Positions 39,317 to 48,382 of a DNA stretch of 51,447 nucleotides are shown here, in pieces; the first letter of the stretch is position 1, and each line of letters opens with the position of its first letter. The translations under genes were made by a program, and so were the position numbers. The notes beneath the pieces are model-generated. The model made no database searches. It was not told where the DNA came from and worked only from the letters and a program-made list of their open reading frames with translations. Source of the DNA: Coriobacteriia bacterium (lineage in GTDB: Bacteria > Actinomycetota > Coriobacteriia > Anaerosomatales > Anaerosomataceae); the NCBI GenBank assembly GCA_016938135.1, contig JAFGVD010000001.1:1-51447 (forward strand). The letters are read 5' to 3'.

Positions 39317-41238
39317 GCGCCACTGATGAGCACTCCTCCAAAGATGTTGAGAATGCGATCGTCCGGCAGGCCGAGTTCCCCATAGGTATCGACCTCTATC
39401 CGTTGGACGAGGAGCGTCGGGGCTGGGCGGATTGGTACGACCGCGATATGGAGCCCGAGTTTTCCGCGCTGGCCGATGCGCGCGTGTGGCTCGTGCGCAT
39501 CTTCGTGTCGTGGAAGTACTTCGAGCCCCAGGTGGGCCAGTATGACGAGGACGCCGCGGGGCGTCTTGACGCGATACTGGACATGGCCTCGGCACACGAC
39601 ATGAAGGTCCTCGTGAGTTTGTTCGCCGACGATCGTCTCGCCGAGATGACCGACGTGCCCTGGGGCAAGCGCCGCGACCCGCGCACCGACGACTACCTCA
39701 TCCAGCGCGAGATCTCACTGGCACAGCGTGTTGTGAACAGGTATCGCGCCCATCCTGTGGTCTGGGGATGGGAACTCGCCAACGAGGCGTTCTGCACCGG
39801 CTTCAAGTCGGAGTCGGACATTGAGCGCTGGACGACGATGCTGCGTGACGCCATCAGGGAGGTGGACGTGGAGCGTCCGGTCCTTCTGGGCGTGGATCCG
39901 GAGACGCTGTATCGAACCACCGGTGTTGACGCGCGCGGCGCGATCGATATGAACGAGTACGCGGTCAGCCACCTGACGGCGCCCTACCGGGTGTATGCCG
40001 CCGAGGGTCCGGTGACCTCCGGTCCCGCCACCTACCTTGAGGGCTTCTTGCTGCGTGCTGCCGCAAGAGACCTGCCTGTGCTCGTTGATGGGGTGGGTGT
40101 GCAATCGCTCGACTTCTCTTTGGCCGAGGAGGCCGCGTCCATCCGCACGTCGCTCTACTCGGCGCTCATGAACGGCGCCTCGGGCGTGATGGTGAGGCGC
40201 TATCGTGACCTTGAGACCGAGAAGCGCGAGCCGTACTTCCGCGATCCTTTCGAGGTGCTGGTGGGAGTGGCGGACGTCGAGGGTGAGGTCAAACCGTCCC
40301 TCGGCGAGATCAAGCGGTTCGCACGCGTGGCCGCGCGGGTGGATAGACGGCGTTATCAGCCGGCTCCCGAGCGCGTCGCGGTGCTCATGCCCGCCGAGAG
40401 GTACGAGCCGCTGCCATCGCTCGCGGGCCTGTACGGACCGCGCGCATGTCTTCAGGCATACATCGGTGCCAAAGAGGCGCACTTGCCGGTCGACGTGGTG
40501 CGCGAGGGTGATGAACTGGGAGCGCACCACGCGCTGATCATCCCCTCGGCGATGAAACTCAGCCCGGGGACGTGGAGCGAGGTCGCCGCGTTTGTGCAGG
40601 GTGGCGGTTCAGTCGTCATGAGCTACGGCGGTGGCGACACAGACCCCGCGGTGCGAGAGGTATTCGGCATCGAGTTCCTCGGCGATCACGGCGTGCGGCG
40701 TACGGTGTCGTGCAGGGTCGCGCAGCCGGGCGTACTGGGTGAGCTGTGCTCGTTCGACGCGCGGCTCGAACTGCCGCACTTCGCGCTGCTGGGTCACGGC
40801 GGAGCCACCATCGTCGCTACTGATGCGACCGGTAGTCCGCTGCTGACGGTGAACCAGTACGGTCAGGGCAAGGCGGTCTATATCGCCGCACCGCTTGAGC
40901 GGGCCCTGGCACAGGGCGATCCGTGGGCGGCACCGGCGGCAGTTCGGGACCTGCTTCGCACCGTGTACGAATCGGTCGCGCGGGCTGCAGGGGCGGGTCC
41001 CATCGTGGACTGCGATACTCCCGAGGTTGAGGTCGCAGTATTCATGGGCGAGGAGGATGATATCGTCATCGCGTTGAATCATTCACCAGAGGCAGTGACC
41101 GCGATGTTGTCCGTGGAGCGTGTCGTCGCCAGTGTGGCGGATGCACGCGGCGGCATCCCTGCCGATGTGGGAGGCAAGACGTTCGGTGTTCCGCTCGCCT
41201 CCAACGGGGCGGCCGCGTTGCGCCTGTCCTATAGTTAG
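39313..41238 (+). CDS. Glycoside-hydrolase-like protein (GH5/GH42 fold), catalytic site incomplete
   Basis: A 641-residue protein without signal peptide. Residues 20-330 read as a TIM barrel of the cellulase/beta-galactosidase clan: IGIDLYPLD, DARVWLVRIFVSWKYFEP, then WELANEAF with the acid/base Glu158. Where the nucleophile Glu is expected after the seventh strand, it has PVLVDGVGVQ (Asp259-Gly), so normal hydrolysis is doubtful. Residues 345-550 resemble the GATase-like trimerisation domain of GH42 enzymes (RVAVLMPAERYE, ALIIPSAMKLSPGTWSEVAAFVQGGGSVVMSYGG). A beta C-terminal domain follows. Lacking export signals and coupled to TPR and EAL genes, it may be a sugar-binding sensor or act on an internal polysaccharide (inference). 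GTG 39313 has GGGAGG six bases upstream. Confidence 0.72.
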   Translation: MSATDEHSSKDVENAIVRQAEFPIGIDLYPLDEERRGWADWYDRDMEPEFSALADARVWLVRIFVSWKYFEPQVGQYDEDAAGRLDAILDMASAHDMKVLVSLFADDRLAEMTDVPWGKRRDPRTDDYLIQREISLAQRVVNRYRAHPVVWGWELANEAFCTGFKSESDIERWTTMLRDAIREVDVERPVLLGVDPETLYRTTGVDARGAIDMNEYAVSHLTAPYRVYAAEGPVTSGPATYLEGFLLRAAARDLPVLVDGVGVQSLDFSLAEEAASIRTSLYSALMNGASGVMVRRYRDLETEKREPYFRDPFEVLVGVADVEGEVKPSLGEIKRFARVAARVDRRRYQPAPERVAVLMPAERYEPLPSLAGLYGPRACLQAYIGAKEAHLPVDVVREGDELGAHHALIIPSAMKLSPGTWSEVAAFVQGGGSVVMSYGGGDTDPAVREVFGIEFLGDHGVRRTVSCRVAQPGVLGELCSFDARLELPHFALLGHGGATIVATDATGSPLLTVNQYGQGKAVYIAAPLERALAQGDPWAAPAAVRDLLRTVYESVARAAGAGPIVDCDTPEVEVAVFMGEEDDIVIALNHSPEAVTAMLSVERVVASVADARGGIPADVGGKTFGVPLASNGAAALRLSYS

Positions 41239-41286
41239 TGCAATGTCAGAGTCACCCAGGTGGTCGACGGAGAATCGGAGCTCGTC

Positions 41287-42639
41287 ATGACGGGACGCCA
41301 CGAGTCGCACAAGTACCTGCTAGAGTCGTGGCTCGAGTTCCATGCGGCCATCGAGGCGCATCCTGAGATCCGCAGGTTGCTTTTCGACCCGGTCACCGGC
41401 CTGCCTACCACGCCGCTGTTGTTCCCGCGCATCGAGTCGCTGCTTGAAGAGCGCGGCGAGATATCGCTTCTGTGCATTAACATAGTGAAGTACTCCAAGA
41501 TCGAGGAGATCTACGGCTGGCAGGTCTTTGACGACGTGATGCGAAAGGTCGCAGTAGCGCTTGAGGAGATCACCGGCAGTGAGCTGCGCGACAGCGACAT
41601 CATCGCGGAGCTCATGATCTCCGGAAACGCGTTCGTGGTGCTGCTTTCGCCGCCACGAACGAGTGACGTCATGGTGAACGAGCATCTCTCCAGTCTTGCG
41701 CGTCGCGTGGAGGGTCGCGTGTGCAGAGCCCTTCGTTCTGCGCTCGACCTTCCCGTGTTCTTGAAGTTCGGTTGCTATGTCGGCGCCGCTACGGTCAGGC
41801 AGGACAAGAGCAAGCGTCTTGAGCGCATCGTGCACGACGCGCTGGACCAGGCACTTGACCAGGCCGACTCCCGCGAGGCCGTGGATGCCGACGAGCGTAA
41901 GGCGCGCCTCAGAGACATCATCTCCAATGAGGACGTGCGCACGTTCGTCCACCCGGTCATCCATCTGCCTGATCGCACCGTGATGGGCTATGAGGCGCTG
42001 ACACGCGGTCCCGAAGGCGGTGAGTTCGAGCGTCCGGACAAGTTGTTCAAGGTCGCCTATGACTCGGATCTTGTGCTCAAGCTTGAGCGCCTCTGTCGCC
42101 ATAAGGCCCTGCAGGTGGCAAGCCAGATGCCGGCCAACCGGTTGATGTTCATCAACATCGAGCCGGAGGCCGTGGTGGATCCCGAGCTGCGCGATGTGGT
42201 GTTCTCATCGATGCTCAATGAGGCGGATCTCTCTCCGGGCCAGATCGTCTTGGAGATCACGGAGCGCGCTGCTATCACAGATTTCCCGACATTCCGCTCC
42301 ACGCTGGAGTATCTGCGCACGCTGGGCTTTGCTATCGCTGTGGATGACGCAGGGGCGGGCTACGGCTCGCTGCAGTGTCTGGCCGAGACAAGACCGGAGT
42401 GGCTCAAGATCGACATGTCGCTCACGCGTGGCGTGGATACCGACGAGGCGCGCCAGCAGCTTGTCACGAGCCTGGTGACGTTTGCCGACCGCATGGATGT
42501 CAAGCTCATCGCCGAGGGGATCGAGACCGCTGAGCAGCTCGCCATGCTGGAGTCCCTCGGCGTCGTGTACGGCCAGGGCTTCTACTTCACCGAGCCCGTT
42601 GCCCCGTTCCCTGACGACGCCGACGTTTGCGGCGCGTAA
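41287..42639 (+). CDS. EAL-domain c-di-GMP phosphodiesterase with degenerate GGDEF domain
   Basis: A 450-residue cytoplasmic protein. The N-terminal half (about 30-200) has GGDEF-fold features (FDPVTGLPTTPLL), but the signature is ISGNAF instead of GGDEF, so it cannot make c-di-GMP and may serve as a regulator. The EAL domain (about 215-440) keeps the catalytic set: GYEALTRG, FINIEP with the Asn, LEITER with the Glu, VDDAGAGYGS with both Asp, LKIDMS with the Lys, AEGIET and the QGFYFTEP end. It should degrade c-di-GMP. ATG 41287 with GGAG six bases upstream is preferred over GTG 41260. It follows the glycosidase-like gene by 48 bases and is probably in the same operon. Confidence 0.87.
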   Translation: MTGRHESHKYLLESWLEFHAAIEAHPEIRRLLFDPVTGLPTTPLLFPRIESLLEERGEISLLCINIVKYSKIEEIYGWQVFDDVMRKVAVALEEITGSELRDSDIIAELMISGNAFVVLLSPPRTSDVMVNEHLSSLARRVEGRVCRALRSALDLPVFLKFGCYVGAATVRQDKSKRLERIVHDALDQALDQADSREAVDADERKARLRDIISNEDVRTFVHPVIHLPDRTVMGYEALTRGPEGGEFERPDKLFKVAYDSDLVLKLERLCRHKALQVASQMPANRLMFINIEPEAVVDPELRDVVFSSMLNEADLSPGQIVLEITERAAITDFPTFRSTLEYLRTLGFAIAVDDAGAGYGSLQCLAETRPEWLKIDMSLTRGVDTDEARQQLVTSLVTFADRMDVKLIAEGIETAEQLAMLESLGVVYGQGFYFTEPVAPFPDDADVCGA

Positions 42640-42702: not shown

Positions 42703-42732
42703 TTGCCTTGATCCCTTACCGCAGGAGGTCAG

Positions 42733-43770
42733 ATGAGCGACCCCGGCCAGATCAGACTCACACGGCTCTCCACAAAGGCGGGTTGAGCCGCCAAGTGGGG
42801 TCCGGGTGACCTGGCAGCCATACTTGAACATCTTTCTCCCGGCGAGTCGGACAACCTGATGGCAGGGTTTGAGACATCCGACGACGCTGCGGTCTATCTG
42901 CTCGGCGATCAAGCAGTGCTGCTGACCGTCGACTTCTTCACGCCCATGGTGGATGACCCCTATGACTTCGGGCGCATCACGGCGGCAAACTCGCTTTCTG
43001 ACATCTATGCCATGGGTGGGCGTGCGCTCACCGCGATGAACCTCCTGGCGATGCCATGCTCTCTACCTGCCGAGGTGGTCGCACAAGTCTTGCAGGGCGG
43101 CGCCGATAAGGTCCGTGAGGCGGGCGCCGTCATCGTGGGCGGCCATACCATCGACGACAAGGAGCCCAAATACGGGCTTTCGGTCATGGGCGTATGCGAC
43201 CCGGACAAGGTCGTGCGCAACGTCGGCGCGCGCGAGGGCGACCTGCTGGTGATGACCAAGCGCATCGGCGTGGGCATCCTCAACACGGCCCTCAAGCAGG
43301 GGCTTGAGACCGAGGAGTCCCTGGCCGAGGTCATCGAGTCGATGGCGCACCTGAACAGGGCTGCCAGCGAAGCGATGGTGGAAGTGGGCGTGAATGCGGG
43401 TACGGATATCACCGGCTTCGGGCTGCTGGGCCATGTGCGCGAGATGGCGCTGGGCAGCGGTCTTGGTGCCGAGATAGACCTTTCCGGAGTCGCCGTCTGG
43501 CCCAACGTCATGGAGTACGCAGCGCAGATGGTACGACCGGGACGAACGACCGACGTGATCCGGTTCCTGAACGAGTTCATAGACTGGGGCAGCGCCGGGC
43601 AGGACTGGAAGGGCGTCTTGGCAGACCCGCAGACCAGCGGGGGACTGCTCATGGCCGTGGACCCGGCCAAAGCCGACGCGCTTCTCTCGGCATTGGAGGA
43701 ACACGGCGAGGACGGATGCATCGTGGGACGGATGACCGCAGGCGAGCCGGGCAGGCTTGTCGTCCGATAA
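42733..43770 (+). CDS. selD: Selenophosphate synthetase SelD, itself a selenoprotein
   Basis: A 345-residue enzyme that makes selenophosphate from selenide and ATP. It begins MSDPGQIRLTRLSTKAG, then an in-frame TGA at 42784-42786 (codon 18), then AAKWGPGDL. The TGA is exactly where the family has its catalytic Cys or Sec in GC/U-x-x-K, followed by the essential Lys. The frame then continues through SDDAAVYL, DFFTPMVDDPYDFG, VGGHTIDD, TDITGFGLLGH and QTSGGLL, all typical of SelD. Gene finders that treat TGA as a stop will start at 42859 and lose the active site. A stem-loop follows the TGA, and selA, selB and tRNA-Sec are next door. Confidence 0.95.
42784..42819 (+). promoter_or_regulatory. 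Sec codon and probable bacterial SECIS element in selD
   Basis: TGA at 42784-42786 is the Sec codon. Just behind it GCCAAGT (42790-42796) pairs with ACCTGGC (42809-42815), six of seven pairs, with an A-C mismatch. The 12-base loop contains GGTCC, like the GGUC-type loop that SelB binds in known bacterial SECIS elements. Position directly after the UGA is as expected. Confidence 0.75.
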
Positions 43771-43782
43771 GGAGGCATGCAG

Positions 43783-44118
43783 GTGAAAGTCGTATTCGTG
43801 AATTCCGACAGTATCGGCGACGGTGACAGGGAGCTTGGCACACGGTTGATGCAGTCGTTTCTGTACTCGCTGGCGCGGGCCGAGGCCAAGCCCGGTGCGG
43901 TGCTGTTCATGAACAGCGGCGTCAGGCTCACCTGTGAAGGCTCCGGTGCACTGGCAGATATCAGGCTGCTTGCCGATGACGGTGTGACCATCAAGTCGTG
44001 CGGTACATGCCTGGACTACCACAAGCTCACGGACACGCTCGCGGTCGGCGAGGTCGGGGACATGAACGGAACCGCCCGGACCTTCATGGCCGCAAGCGAT
44101 GTTGTGAGCATCGGATAG
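43783..44118 (+). CDS. yedF: YedF-like selenium metabolism protein, DsrE-like domain only
   Basis: A 111-residue protein matching the C-terminal DsrE-like half of YedF, a protein found next to selenium genes: VVFVNSDSIGDGDRELG, LMQSFLYSLARAEAKPGAVLFMNSGVRLTCEGS, then SCGTCLDYHKL with a CxxC pair, and AVGEVGDMNGTA. The TusA-like N-terminal domain with its Cys-Pro motif, present in longer YedF proteins, is missing here. A role in handling selenium or sulfur in the pathway is likely but not proven. GTG 43783 is preferred because GGAGG (43771-43775) lies seven bases upstream; ATG 43777 is too close to it. It follows selD by 12 bases. Confidence 0.85.
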   Translation: MKVVFVNSDSIGDGDRELGTRLMQSFLYSLARAEAKPGAVLFMNSGVRLTCEGSGALADIRLLADDGVTIKSCGTCLDYHKLTDTLAVGEVGDMNGTARTFMAASDVVSIG

Positions 44119-44160: not shown

Positions 44161-45558
44161 ATGGATACTCAGAAGCTTCTTCGCACACTGCCCAAAGTGG
44201 ACCGTCTTCTCGAAAGGGAGGATGTTGCCGCACTTACCGCAGTACACCCGCGGCCGCTTGTGCTGGATGCGTTGCGAGACGCCATCGACGAGACCCGTGA
44301 CGGCATCAGGCACGGTCATGTCGAGAGCGTCAGCGACGACGTCGTCGTTGCGCGGGCAGCCGGCCTGCTGGCCGTTGCGGTGAAGCGTTCGTTGCATCGC
44401 GTCATCAACGCCACGGGCATCGTGGTGCATACCAACCTGGGTCGCTCGCCTCTAGCTGAGGCGGCTGCAGACGCGGTGGCCGAAGTAGCTCGCGGCTACT
44501 CCACGTTGGAGTACGACGTGGACAGCGGCGAGCGCGGCTCGCGTCACGTGCACGTGGAGGAGCTGCTGAAGCGCCTCACCGGCGCGGAGGCCGCCATGGC
44601 GGTCAACAACAACGCCGCTGCGGTGCTTCTGGGCATCGCGGGCCTGGCGCGCGGCAAGGAGGCCATCGTCTCCCGCGGTCAGCTGGTGGAGATAGGCGGC
44701 AGCTTCCGGATCCCGGACATCATGCGCGAGAGCGGCGCGAAGATGGTCGAGGTGGGCACCACCAACAAGACGCATCTGCGCGACTACGAGAACGCGCTCA
44801 CGGCTGACACGGGACTCCTGCTCAAGGTGCACTCCTCCAACTATCGTGTGGTGGGTTTCACTGAGGAGGTCTCGCTGCCGGAGCTGGTCCACCTGGGCGC
44901 GCAGCACGGCGTCCCTGTCTTCGAAGACCAGGGCTCCGGCGTGCTGATCGATCTGGCGCGATTCGGATTGCCGGGCGAGCCCACACTGGGAAGCGCTGTG
45001 GCCGCAGGCGCCGATATCGTCTCGGCATCGGGTGACAAGCTCCTGGGCGGTCCGCAGGCCGGCATCCTTGTGGGCAAGTGGCACACCATCGAGAAGCTCA
45101 AGAAGCACCCTCTGGCGCGCGCGGTGCGCCTGGATAAGATGACGCTGGCCGCCCTTGAGGTCACATTGCGACTCTATCTTGACGAGAAGCGGCTGCTGAC
45201 CGAGGTCCCCACGCTGCGCATGCTCACCATCCCGGCCGCCGAGCTCAGGTCCCGTGCTACTTCCTTCGCTGCAGCGATATCGGTGGCCTGCGGGGATGCG
45301 TGCGAAGTGCAGACCGCTCCGGACGTGTCGCGCGCGGGTGGCGGTGCGCTGCCCATGGCCGACATCCCCACCACGGTCGTCTCGGTAGTGCCGGTCCACA
45401 TGAGCGTGGTGGAGCTGGAGCGCCGTTTGCGCCTGGCCGAGCCCACCATCGTGGGCCGCATCAAAGACGGCCGCCTGCTGCTGGATCCGCGTACGCTCAT
45501 ACCTGCCGAGGAAGCCGAGATAACAGACGCCCTCAAGCGTGCGACCCGGGAGGCGTAG
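44161..45558 (+). CDS. selA: Selenocysteine synthase SelA
   Basis: A 465-residue PLP enzyme that converts Ser-tRNA(Sec) to Sec-tRNA(Sec) with selenophosphate. The typical segments are present: [83 protein letters not shown], and the PLP-binding Lys293 in [12 protein letters not shown]. The length is standard. It lies between yedF and selB, 3 bases before the selB start, in the same direction, as in many selA-selB operons. Its substrate tRNA is encoded right after selB. Confidence 0.97.
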
Positions 45559-45561
45559 GAC

Positions 45562-47469
45562 GTGAGCACTTCTCTGGTGCTCGGCACCGCCGGGCATATC
45601 GACCATGGCAAATCCGCGCTCGTCAAAGCGCTCACCGGCACCGATCCCGACCGCCTTCCCGAGGAAAAGGAGCGCGGCGTCACCATCGAGCTGGGCTTCG
45701 CGCGCCTTGAACTCCCCAGCGGTCGCAGTATGGGAGTCGTCGACGTTCCCGGTCACGAGCGTTTCGTGCGCCAGATGGTGGCGGGCGCTACCGGCATCGA
45801 CGTGGTGCTTTTGGTGATCGCCGCGGATGACGGCGTGATGCCGCAGACGCGTGAGCACCTGGCCATCATCGACCTTCTCGGCATACCGAAGGGCGTCGTT
45901 GCGCTTACCAAGAGCGATCTGGTGGATGACGAGTGGCTGGAGCTTGTGCGTGAGGACGTGCGCACGTTGCTGATGGGCACATCCATCGACGGCGCGCCCG
46001 TGGTGGCCGTCTCATCCAAGACCGGCGCCGGGATCGACGAGCTGCGCACCACGATAGACATGGTGGCCGAGGATACCCGGTCGAGCCATGGCGACATGCT
46101 CATGCGCCTGCCGGTCGATAGAGTCTTCACCATCGCGGGCGCCGGCACTGTCGTGACCGGGACTCTGTGGTCCGGCGTCGCTTCGCCGGGCGATCAGATC
46201 GAACTCTATCCGTCGGGCAGGACCGGTCGCATCCGTAGCGTCCAGGTACACTCGGAGGCCGTCGACAAGGCTGTGGCAGGAAACCGTGTGGCGCTCAACC
46301 TGGTGGGTCTGGAGAAAGACGATATCTCACGCGGCGACATCGTGGCGGCGCCGGATACGCTCACCGTCACCGATCGTTTCGACGGCCTGTTCACGTACCT
46401 TGCCGGCAACGAGCTGCCCTTTGAGAGCGGCACACGCGTGCACGTGCATCACGGCACCCGCGTGGTGCTGGGCCGAGCGCTCCTCATGGAAGTGGAGCGC
46501 CTGGCTCCCAGCGAGTCCGGTTTCGCGCAGATCCGCCTGGAGGAGCCGCTCTCGCCGCGTTACGGCGACCGCTATATAGTGCGATCGTACTCGCCGGTCT
46601 TCACCATCGGCGGCGGCGCGGTTCTGGACGCTTTCCCGCCTCGCCGCACGACGCTGCGTCCGCACGAGCGCGAACTGCTCGAAGCGCTGCTCGCTCACGA
46701 TCTCACCTCCGCGGCGGTAGGGTTGCTGGAGTCGCGCGGCATGCCGATGACGTCGGCGCAGGTCGCGTCCACGCTCGGTGTTCCGCGCTCACAGGTGGCC
46801 GACCAGCTCAATCAGGCCAGGCTCGAACGTGTGAAGGTGGCCGGTGAGATCTACTTCGTCTCGCAAGAGGCGTTCGAGGCCATGCTTGCGGGCATCGAAC
46901 GGGAGCTGCTGGCGTTCCACGAGGCGTCGCCCAAGGCCACTGGCATCGCCGCTTCCGCGCTGCGAGACAAGATCGACAGACGCCTGGCACCCAAGGTGTT
47001 CGATGCGCTGCTTGGCGTAGCGATCGAGCGGGGGACTGCGGCAACCGACGGCGGACAGGTCCGTCATCCCAAGGCTGCCGTATCCGCGCTGGCCGAGGAG
47101 GAGAACGCGCTTGCCGCATTGGCGCCGCTGCTTGAGTCGCAAGGACTGGCGCCGCAGACGGTGCCGGAGCTTGCCGCCGTGGCCGGGATCGACGTGGGTG
47201 TCGCCCGCAAGGCCCTGGGTAAGCTGGTGGCATCCGGGAGCCTGGTGCGTCTGGGAGGAGACCTGCACTTCTCGGCAGGGGCGGTAGCCGATGCACGCGA
47301 GAAGATCGTCGCCTATCTACGCGAGCATGGGGAGATAGCGCCCAAAGACGCGCGTGACATCACCGGGTCCAGCCGTAAGTACATCGTGCCGCTGCTGGAG
47401 TACTTCGATGCGCAGGGCGTCACGAAGCGCGAGGGCGACATCAGGACGCTGGGCAAGGTCAGCGGCTAG
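45562..47469 (+). CDS. selB: Selenocysteine-specific elongation factor SelB
   Basis: A 635-residue GTPase that brings Sec-tRNA(Sec) to the ribosome at UGA codons marked by a SECIS hairpin. The G domain has [19 protein letters not shown] (G1), [12 protein letters not shown] (G3) and LTKSDLVD (G4). Beta-barrel domains follow (about 170-340, with GTVVTGTL and [10 protein letters not shown]). The rest (about 375-630) is a chain of winged-helix domains that bind SECIS RNA. GTG 45562 has GGGAGG upstream. Gene end and tRNA-Sec are 46 bases apart. Confidence 0.96.
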
Positions 47470-47515
47470 GGATTCTGTTTGACACGTGAGGGGTCGGTCG
47501 GGAGAATACCCCCCT

Positions 47516-47612
47516 GGAGGCGAATGGGTCCTGGTGGGCTCCGCGGTCTTCAAAACCGACGTGGGGCGTGAAGAGCGTCCTGGGTGTGTTCGATTCGCAC
47601 ACGCCTCCGCCA
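47516..47612 (+). tRNA. selC: tRNA-Sec (anticodon UCA)
   Basis: A 97-base tRNA with encoded CCA. The acceptor strands GGAGGCGA and ACGCCTCC give seven Watson-Crick pairs, and the eighth pair expected in tRNA-Sec is A-A. The D stem is long (GGGTCC/GGCTCC, six positions, one mismatch), as expected for tRNA-Sec. The anticodon loop CTTCAAA holds TCA at 47550-47552. The variable arm is long, and the T arm is GTGTG-TTCGATT-CGCAC. It lies directly behind selB. Confidence 0.95.
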
Positions 47613-47627
47613 TATGCTTTGAACTGC

Positions 47628-47654
47628 GGCGATCCGCTCCGGCGGGTCGCCGTT
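47628..47654 (+). terminator. Terminator after tRNA-Sec
   Basis: GGCGATCCGC (47628-47637) pairs with GCGGGTCGCC (47642-47651), ten pairs with one G-U, over the loop TCCG, followed by GTTTGCT. It should end the selenocysteine transcript. Confidence 0.65.
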
Positions 47655-47703
47655 TGCTGTCCCCTGTTCAAGAAAGCATGCAGACGCGCGAATCTCGTCA
47701 GGA

Positions 47704-47709
47704 TATAGT
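47704..47709 (+). promoter_or_regulatory. -10 box of the last operon
   Basis: TATAGT lies 31 bases before GTG 47741, with the SD GGGGGAGG (47729-47736) between. The -35 region (CAGACG) is weak. The box lies after an in-frame ATG at 47678, which argues against that earlier start. Confidence 0.45.
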
Positions 47710-47740
47710 CGCCACAGGGACATCTATCGGGGGAGGCGCT

Positions 47741-48382
47741 GTGGCTCAGGGTTCTGCGGGATTCTGCACAGGATGCGGGGCTCCACTGACTGCTGAAAGT
47801 CGATTCTGTGTCAGGTGCGGGCAGCCACGCACCAGCCCTGCTCCACAGACACGCAGCGCTTCGGGCGCCGTCACAGCCGCATACGGGGCGGCCTCACAAG
47901 TCGCCAGCGTCGCGTCCATGGCGAGCGGACTCCCATGGCAGACGATCGTTGCGGGCCAGACCCCTGATCTGCGCGCGATGCTCTCTCGCGCAGCCATGCC
48001 AACGGCACGGACCGCGATGCAGCGCTCTCTCAAGCGTCCCGGTCTCTCGATGGCGGCGACCACGGCGCTCGACCTGTTCGTCGCAGGCGTCTCCGGCGGT
48101 CCCGCAGCGCTTGCAGGCGCTATCCCGCGCGCGCTCGGTGGGGGACTCACATCGCTTCTCTCCCTGGCCACCGGTTCCAAAGGCGGCGCGCTTCGCAGCC
48201 TTACGGGCATCGTCTCGCTTCTGACCGCACTCGTTCAGGTGGTCTCACTCGGCTGGACGTTCATCGGCGGGCTCGCCGGAGGGACGCCGCTGCTCACACT
48301 CGCTCCCATGGCGATAGCTACCGCTTCGGCGCTTCTCATGGCGCTCAAGACGGCTTCGGTGGCACTGAGGAGGCGGTCGTAG
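47741..48382 (+). CDS. Zinc-ribbon membrane protein
   Basis: A 213-residue protein of unknown function. A zinc ribbon (FCTGCG and FCVRCG, about residues 7-27) is followed by an Ala/Ser-rich stretch. The second half is hydrophobic (about 115-205), with Gly/Ala/Leu-rich segments that suggest two or three membrane helices. It ends in RRRS. GTG 47741 is preferred because it follows the -10 box and the SD; the frame is open much further upstream, but that part runs through tRNA-Sec and cannot be coding. Its TAG stop touches the ATG of the giant surface protein, so the two are co-translated. Confidence 0.65.
   Translation: MAQGSAGFCTGCGAPLTAESRFCVRCGQPRTSPAPQTRSASGAVTAAYGAASQVASVASMASGLPWQTIVAGQTPDLRAMLSRAAMPTARTAMQRSLKRPGLSMAATTALDLFVAGVSGGPAALAGAIPRALGGGLTSLLSLATGSKGGALRSLTGIVSLLTALVQVVSLGWTFIGGLAGGTPLLTLAPMAIATASALLMALKTASVALRRRS

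Follow-up and report, generated by a model that had tools for sequence, protein, structure and literature searches.

A Sec-type selenophosphate synthetase gene with a conserved hairpin behind its in-frame TGA in a Coriobacteriia bacterium

The selD gene in the window (the whole analysed stretch of 51,447 nucleotides from a draft genome of a Coriobacteriia bacterium) very probably encodes a true Sec-type selenophosphate synthetase; we put the probability at about 0.96. According to this reading, a hairpin would direct the insertion of selenocysteine (Sec) at the UGA codon at 42784, and SelD and SelA would together form a loop that feeds itself. The first-pass annotation had proposed that SelD is itself a selenoprotein, and every sequence test available to us (codon, hairpin and machinery) supports this prediction. 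The finding is correct and well supported but ordinary: it concerns an old and common family, makes a good annotation case and holds no surprise, and Sec-type SelD is found in all family and order relatives examined and in the nearest matches from several other phyla.

Results and Discussion

The selD gene and its in-frame TGA

The selD frame runs from 42733 to 43770 on the forward strand. Its ATG lies four bases downstream of a Shine-Dalgarno-like AGGAGG, read directly from the sequence (42723-42728, same strand). The frame contains a single TGA, at 42784-42786 (codon 18), and the read-through product is a SelD of 345 residues with predicted Sec at residue 18. The TIGR00476 model matches residues 8-313 with 368 bits (cut-off 125), which covers nearly the whole model, and the AIRS and AIRS_C domains are both present. 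Using phmmer, residues 5-344 were aligned to the solved SelD structure 3u0o and residues 7-332 to 2yye. Both solved proteins have Cys at the TGA position and align on both of its flanks, so that an in-frame UGA stands opposite a Cys of homologues with similarity on either side, as is looked for in bacterial selenoproteins. These alignments and the family model bear out the earlier claims that the TGA occupies the catalytic Cys/Sec site and that family sequence continues across it. SelD proteins have a UxxK motif, in which a conserved Lys comes after the catalytic Cys/Sec (PMC13188914); it reads GUAAK in the window protein, and the C/U and the K are present in all aligned relatives.

The first standard start codon 3' of the TGA is the ATG at 42859, where the mechanical open reading frame indeed begins, as had been anticipated for annotation without recoding. 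A gene called from this start would lose the active-site loop, so a likely mis-annotation that deletes the active site of SelD is corrected here.

The site in related genomes

We searched 149 relatives, of which 117 had a SelD above the cut-off. The site could be read in 90 relative sequences, all from the same bacterial class, which makes 91 with the window. The codon is TGA in 75 of these (window included) and a Cys codon in the other 16; no other residue occurs. TGA is the codon in all relatives of the family and the order that were examined, and Cys-type SelD is confined within the class to two other families, here f18 and f22. On the tree, which has SH-aLRT support only and a few rows on long branches, only two changes between the Sec and Cys types are needed. 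The genus g52 contains both Sec-type SelD (L084, L089, L090) and Cys-type SelD (L007, L009, L010, L012, L016) in different clades of the tree, a placement that suggests replacement of the gene rather than a point change. In one relative (L092, at G007:C23) the SelD match is split in two, which is likely to be an assembly frameshift or a broken gene.

The nearest relative of the window SelD, from an uncultured Coriobacteriia bacterium, is 89% identical. When one genome per species was scanned, 79 of the best 80 SelD relatives had TGA at the site and the remaining one gave no alignment at this position; this figure describes the nearest relatives only and is no census. The 80 belong to Actinomycetota, Chloroflexota, Fidelibacterota, Bacillota, Nitrospirota, Nitrospinota, Gemmatimonadota and Pseudomonadota, and many of them carry a comparable GGTCC...GACC element.

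The hairpin downstream of the UGA codon

A stem-loop of the bacterial SECIS type is found at 42799-42811 on the forward strand. Its stem is formed by GGUC (42799-42802) and GACC (42808-42811), and its loop is CGGGU (42803-42807). Counted from the U of the UGA, nucleotides 16-19 pair with nucleotides 25-28 around a five-base loop; in other words, measured from the end of the codon, the stem begins at 12 nt and its loop at 16 nt. In the window the hairpin is extended by a G-U pair (42798/42812) and two lower pairs. A hairpin behind the TGA had been noticed in the first pass and is confirmed, but its loop had been taken to be GGTCC. This candidate was rejected: GGTC is the conserved 5' arm of the stem that pairs with GACC, and the true loop is CGGGT. 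A bacterial SECIS is described as a stem-loop just after the UGA with a G in a small apical loop (PMC1088965), and GGUC-CGGGU-GACC has this form.

The stem is tied to the Sec type. Four standard pairs at the fixed place (one base away from it in the Sec types of f18 and f22) were found in 73 of 75 Sec-type SelD genes of the class as against none of 16 Cys-type genes; the sequences are related, so these counts do not represent independent events. In the shifted group the stem is GGCU-AGCC or GGCA-UGCC, i.e. the sequence differs and the stem is kept. A similar constraint is seen in the codons. The conserved Gly at position +5, which lies inside the hairpin, is encoded by GGT in 68/68 genes; Gly+7 uses GGT, GGC, GGA and GGG 20, 13, 11 and 2 times, respectively, and Gly+19 uses all four codons. 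For the 24-nt segment, folding energies average -10.3 kcal/mol in Sec types versus -5.8 after synonymous recoding, and the corresponding values in Cys types are -6.8 and -6.5 kcal/mol. Taken by itself, the window hairpin is not exceptional against shuffled sequences (z between -0.65 and +0.79) and gives p = 0.07 against synonymous recoding, so the case for it is built on the comparison among relatives. A search of the region with Rfam at a relaxed threshold gave no match to a SECIS family.

Gene neighbourhood and genome context

On the same strand, selD is followed in order by yedF, selA, selB and the tRNA-Sec gene. The adjacency of selA, selB and tRNA-Sec had been pointed out before, and all three do lie downstream; the yedF gene between selD and selA had gone unmentioned. 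It is a short form (43777-44118, forward strand, 113 aa) with the C-terminal domain only (TIGR03527, 122.6 bits, profile positions 86-194 of 194). Next comes selA for the L-seryl-tRNA(Sec) selenium transferase (44161-45558, forward; TIGR00474, 606.8 bits), then selB for the Sec-specific elongation factor (45562-47469, forward; TIGR00475, 376 bits, with SelB winged-helix domains) and the tRNA-Sec gene selC with anticodon TCA (47516-47612, forward; ARAGORN, and RF01852 with 65.8 bits). In many Sec-type relatives of the order, yedF and selA also adjoin selD. The yedF frames are short in most of the order-level relatives read and have 183-232 codons in three Cys-type relatives of the class; a separate frame of 86 codons, which matches the N-terminal part of the yedF family, is found at G000:C36:160196-160378. 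The longest mechanical open reading frame at 47486-48382 begins upstream of the tRNA-Sec gene and overlaps it; if started after the tRNA, its product would have a zinc-ribbon-like N terminus of the CxxC...CxxC kind.

The source genome is a 2.13-Mb draft in 49 contigs and is 98.96% complete. SelD, SelB and tRNA-Sec each occur once in it above threshold, and with SelA the set of genes expected for a bacterium that makes selenoproteins is present in the same genome. A Cys-type SelD that might serve as a backup was sought in this genome and none was found, the sole other match being weak (53.9 bits, below the cut-off). Likewise, 2-selenouridine synthase (TIGR03167) was not found in the genome, and neither was GrdB (PF07355), the latter in a search run without a positive control.

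A second predicted selenoprotein, similar to formate dehydrogenase, is encoded on the minus strand elsewhere in the genome (L093, G000:C8, about 39582-42428). A single in-frame TGA occurs in this molybdopterin oxidoreductase gene; the residues around it, ARI-U-HSATV, contain an FdhA-type UH motif, and a hairpin GUCCAA-GGU-UUGGGC with the loop GGU lies 3' of the codon. SelD is therefore not the sole predicted selenoprotein of this genome.

Alternative readings of the TGA

If the TGA were a real stop, only a protein of 303 aa would be made from the ATG at 42859, either a SelD-like protein without the Sec/Cys loop or the product of a decaying gene. The mechanical reading frame does start there. 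Nevertheless, SelD-type residues upstream of the codon are kept in all aligned relatives, whether these have TGA or Cys at the site, AGGAGG precedes the ATG at 42733, and synonymous codons are fixed 3' of the TGA. The suggestion that related genomes might have a stop here with no conserved sequence ahead of it was checked as well: the relatives share the TGA, and the protein is conserved on both sides. Moreover, a SelD without its catalytic residue would be expected not to work, and the genome, in which selA, selB and tRNA-Sec are intact and another UGA gene is present, has no SelD besides this one. We consider termination at this codon highly improbable. An even smaller, practically negligible chance is given to a sequencing or assembly error for TGC or TGT in a Cys-type gene. 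The codon does come from a single contig of a draft assembly and Cys-type SelD does occur in the class, but assemblies made independently for members of its genus, family, order and class show the same TGA, and the gene has the hairpin that the Cys types lack.

A further possibility is that the UGA is read mainly as Cys, by way of thiophosphate, or as Trp by near-cognate decoding, often enough to provide active SelD, and that Sec is inserted only under an ample supply of selenium. In some selenoproteins Cys can take the place of Sec when selenium is scarce, Cys-type SelD is found elsewhere in the class, and such decoding would also answer the question of how the pathway starts. On the other hand, conservation of the hairpin points to Sec as the residue mainly inserted, and we regard this alternative as very unlikely.

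Self-dependence and start-up

It is established for the SelA/SelB/SelC/SelD system that SelB delivers Sec-tRNA to the hairpin and that the selenium donor is produced by SelD. In the Sec-type reading that we prefer, SelB with Sec-tRNA(Sec) would recognise the hairpin whose loop lies 16 nt past the UGA at 42784, and Sec would be placed at the catalytic position in the N-terminal loop. The predicted activity of SelD would convert selenide and ATP to selenophosphate, from which SelA would produce Sec-tRNA(Sec), and this in turn would allow further SelD to be made, together with one or more other predicted selenoproteins, among them the formate-dehydrogenase-like one. It had been claimed that the pathway depends on its own product; since the window SelD is the only one in a 99%-complete genome, we agree. 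SelD is needed for Sec-tRNA and is itself of the Sec type, which results in a self-dependent loop with no second SelD here to start it.

Such an autocatalytic loop need not be a practical paradox in a growing lineage, as daughter cells would inherit SelD, selenophosphate and Sec-tRNA and so would need no fresh start. Start-up or recovery might proceed via rare read-through of the UGA, for example with Cys inserted by near-cognate decoding or by SelA using thiophosphate. It is conceivable, but rather unlikely in our view, that SelD, SelA, SelB and the tRNA form a self-sustaining bistable selenium switch, an idea that draws on the lineage keeping a single Sec-requiring SelD and on there being no Cys copy in this genome. 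In that case starved cells without SelD would recover only by rare read-through or Cys insertion at the UGA. A genome like this one, in which the single SelD is of the Sec type and no Cys copy was found, offers a fair setting for the question of how a selenium pathway that depends on itself is restarted. The puzzle of the first molecule is nevertheless generic to all Sec-type SelD proteins, and the question is old and general.

Relation to known systems

Sec-type SelD has been known from many bacteria since the 1990s. Sec occurs at this position in 19% of prokaryotic SelD genes (PMC4561486), in agreement with the remark in the first-pass annotation that some bacteria have this type. Guimaraes et al. 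(PNAS 1996) already raised SelD autoregulation in their title, and a 2006 paper already treats genomes in which SelD is the sole selenoprotein and supports itself. The window protein belongs to the same family as the Sec-type SelD/SPS2 proteins (TIGR00476) of many bacteria, Methanococcales and animals, with Sec at the same position and, as in the bacterial genes, a SECIS directly after the UGA. Nothing essential differs apart from the lineage-specific residues UAAKWGPGDL, and with this gene the Sec-type SelD enzymes gain a well-supported lineage whose hairpin is clearly defined. The Cys-type enzymes of E. coli and of f18 and f22 belong to the same family and share the catalytic position, but they have a Cys codon and lack the hairpin (0/16 in the class). 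The fdhF-like bacterial SECIS resembles the window element, i.e. a short stem-loop right after the UGA with a G in a small apical loop, although the selD hairpin differs in sequence from that of the formate-dehydrogenase-like gene of the same genome.
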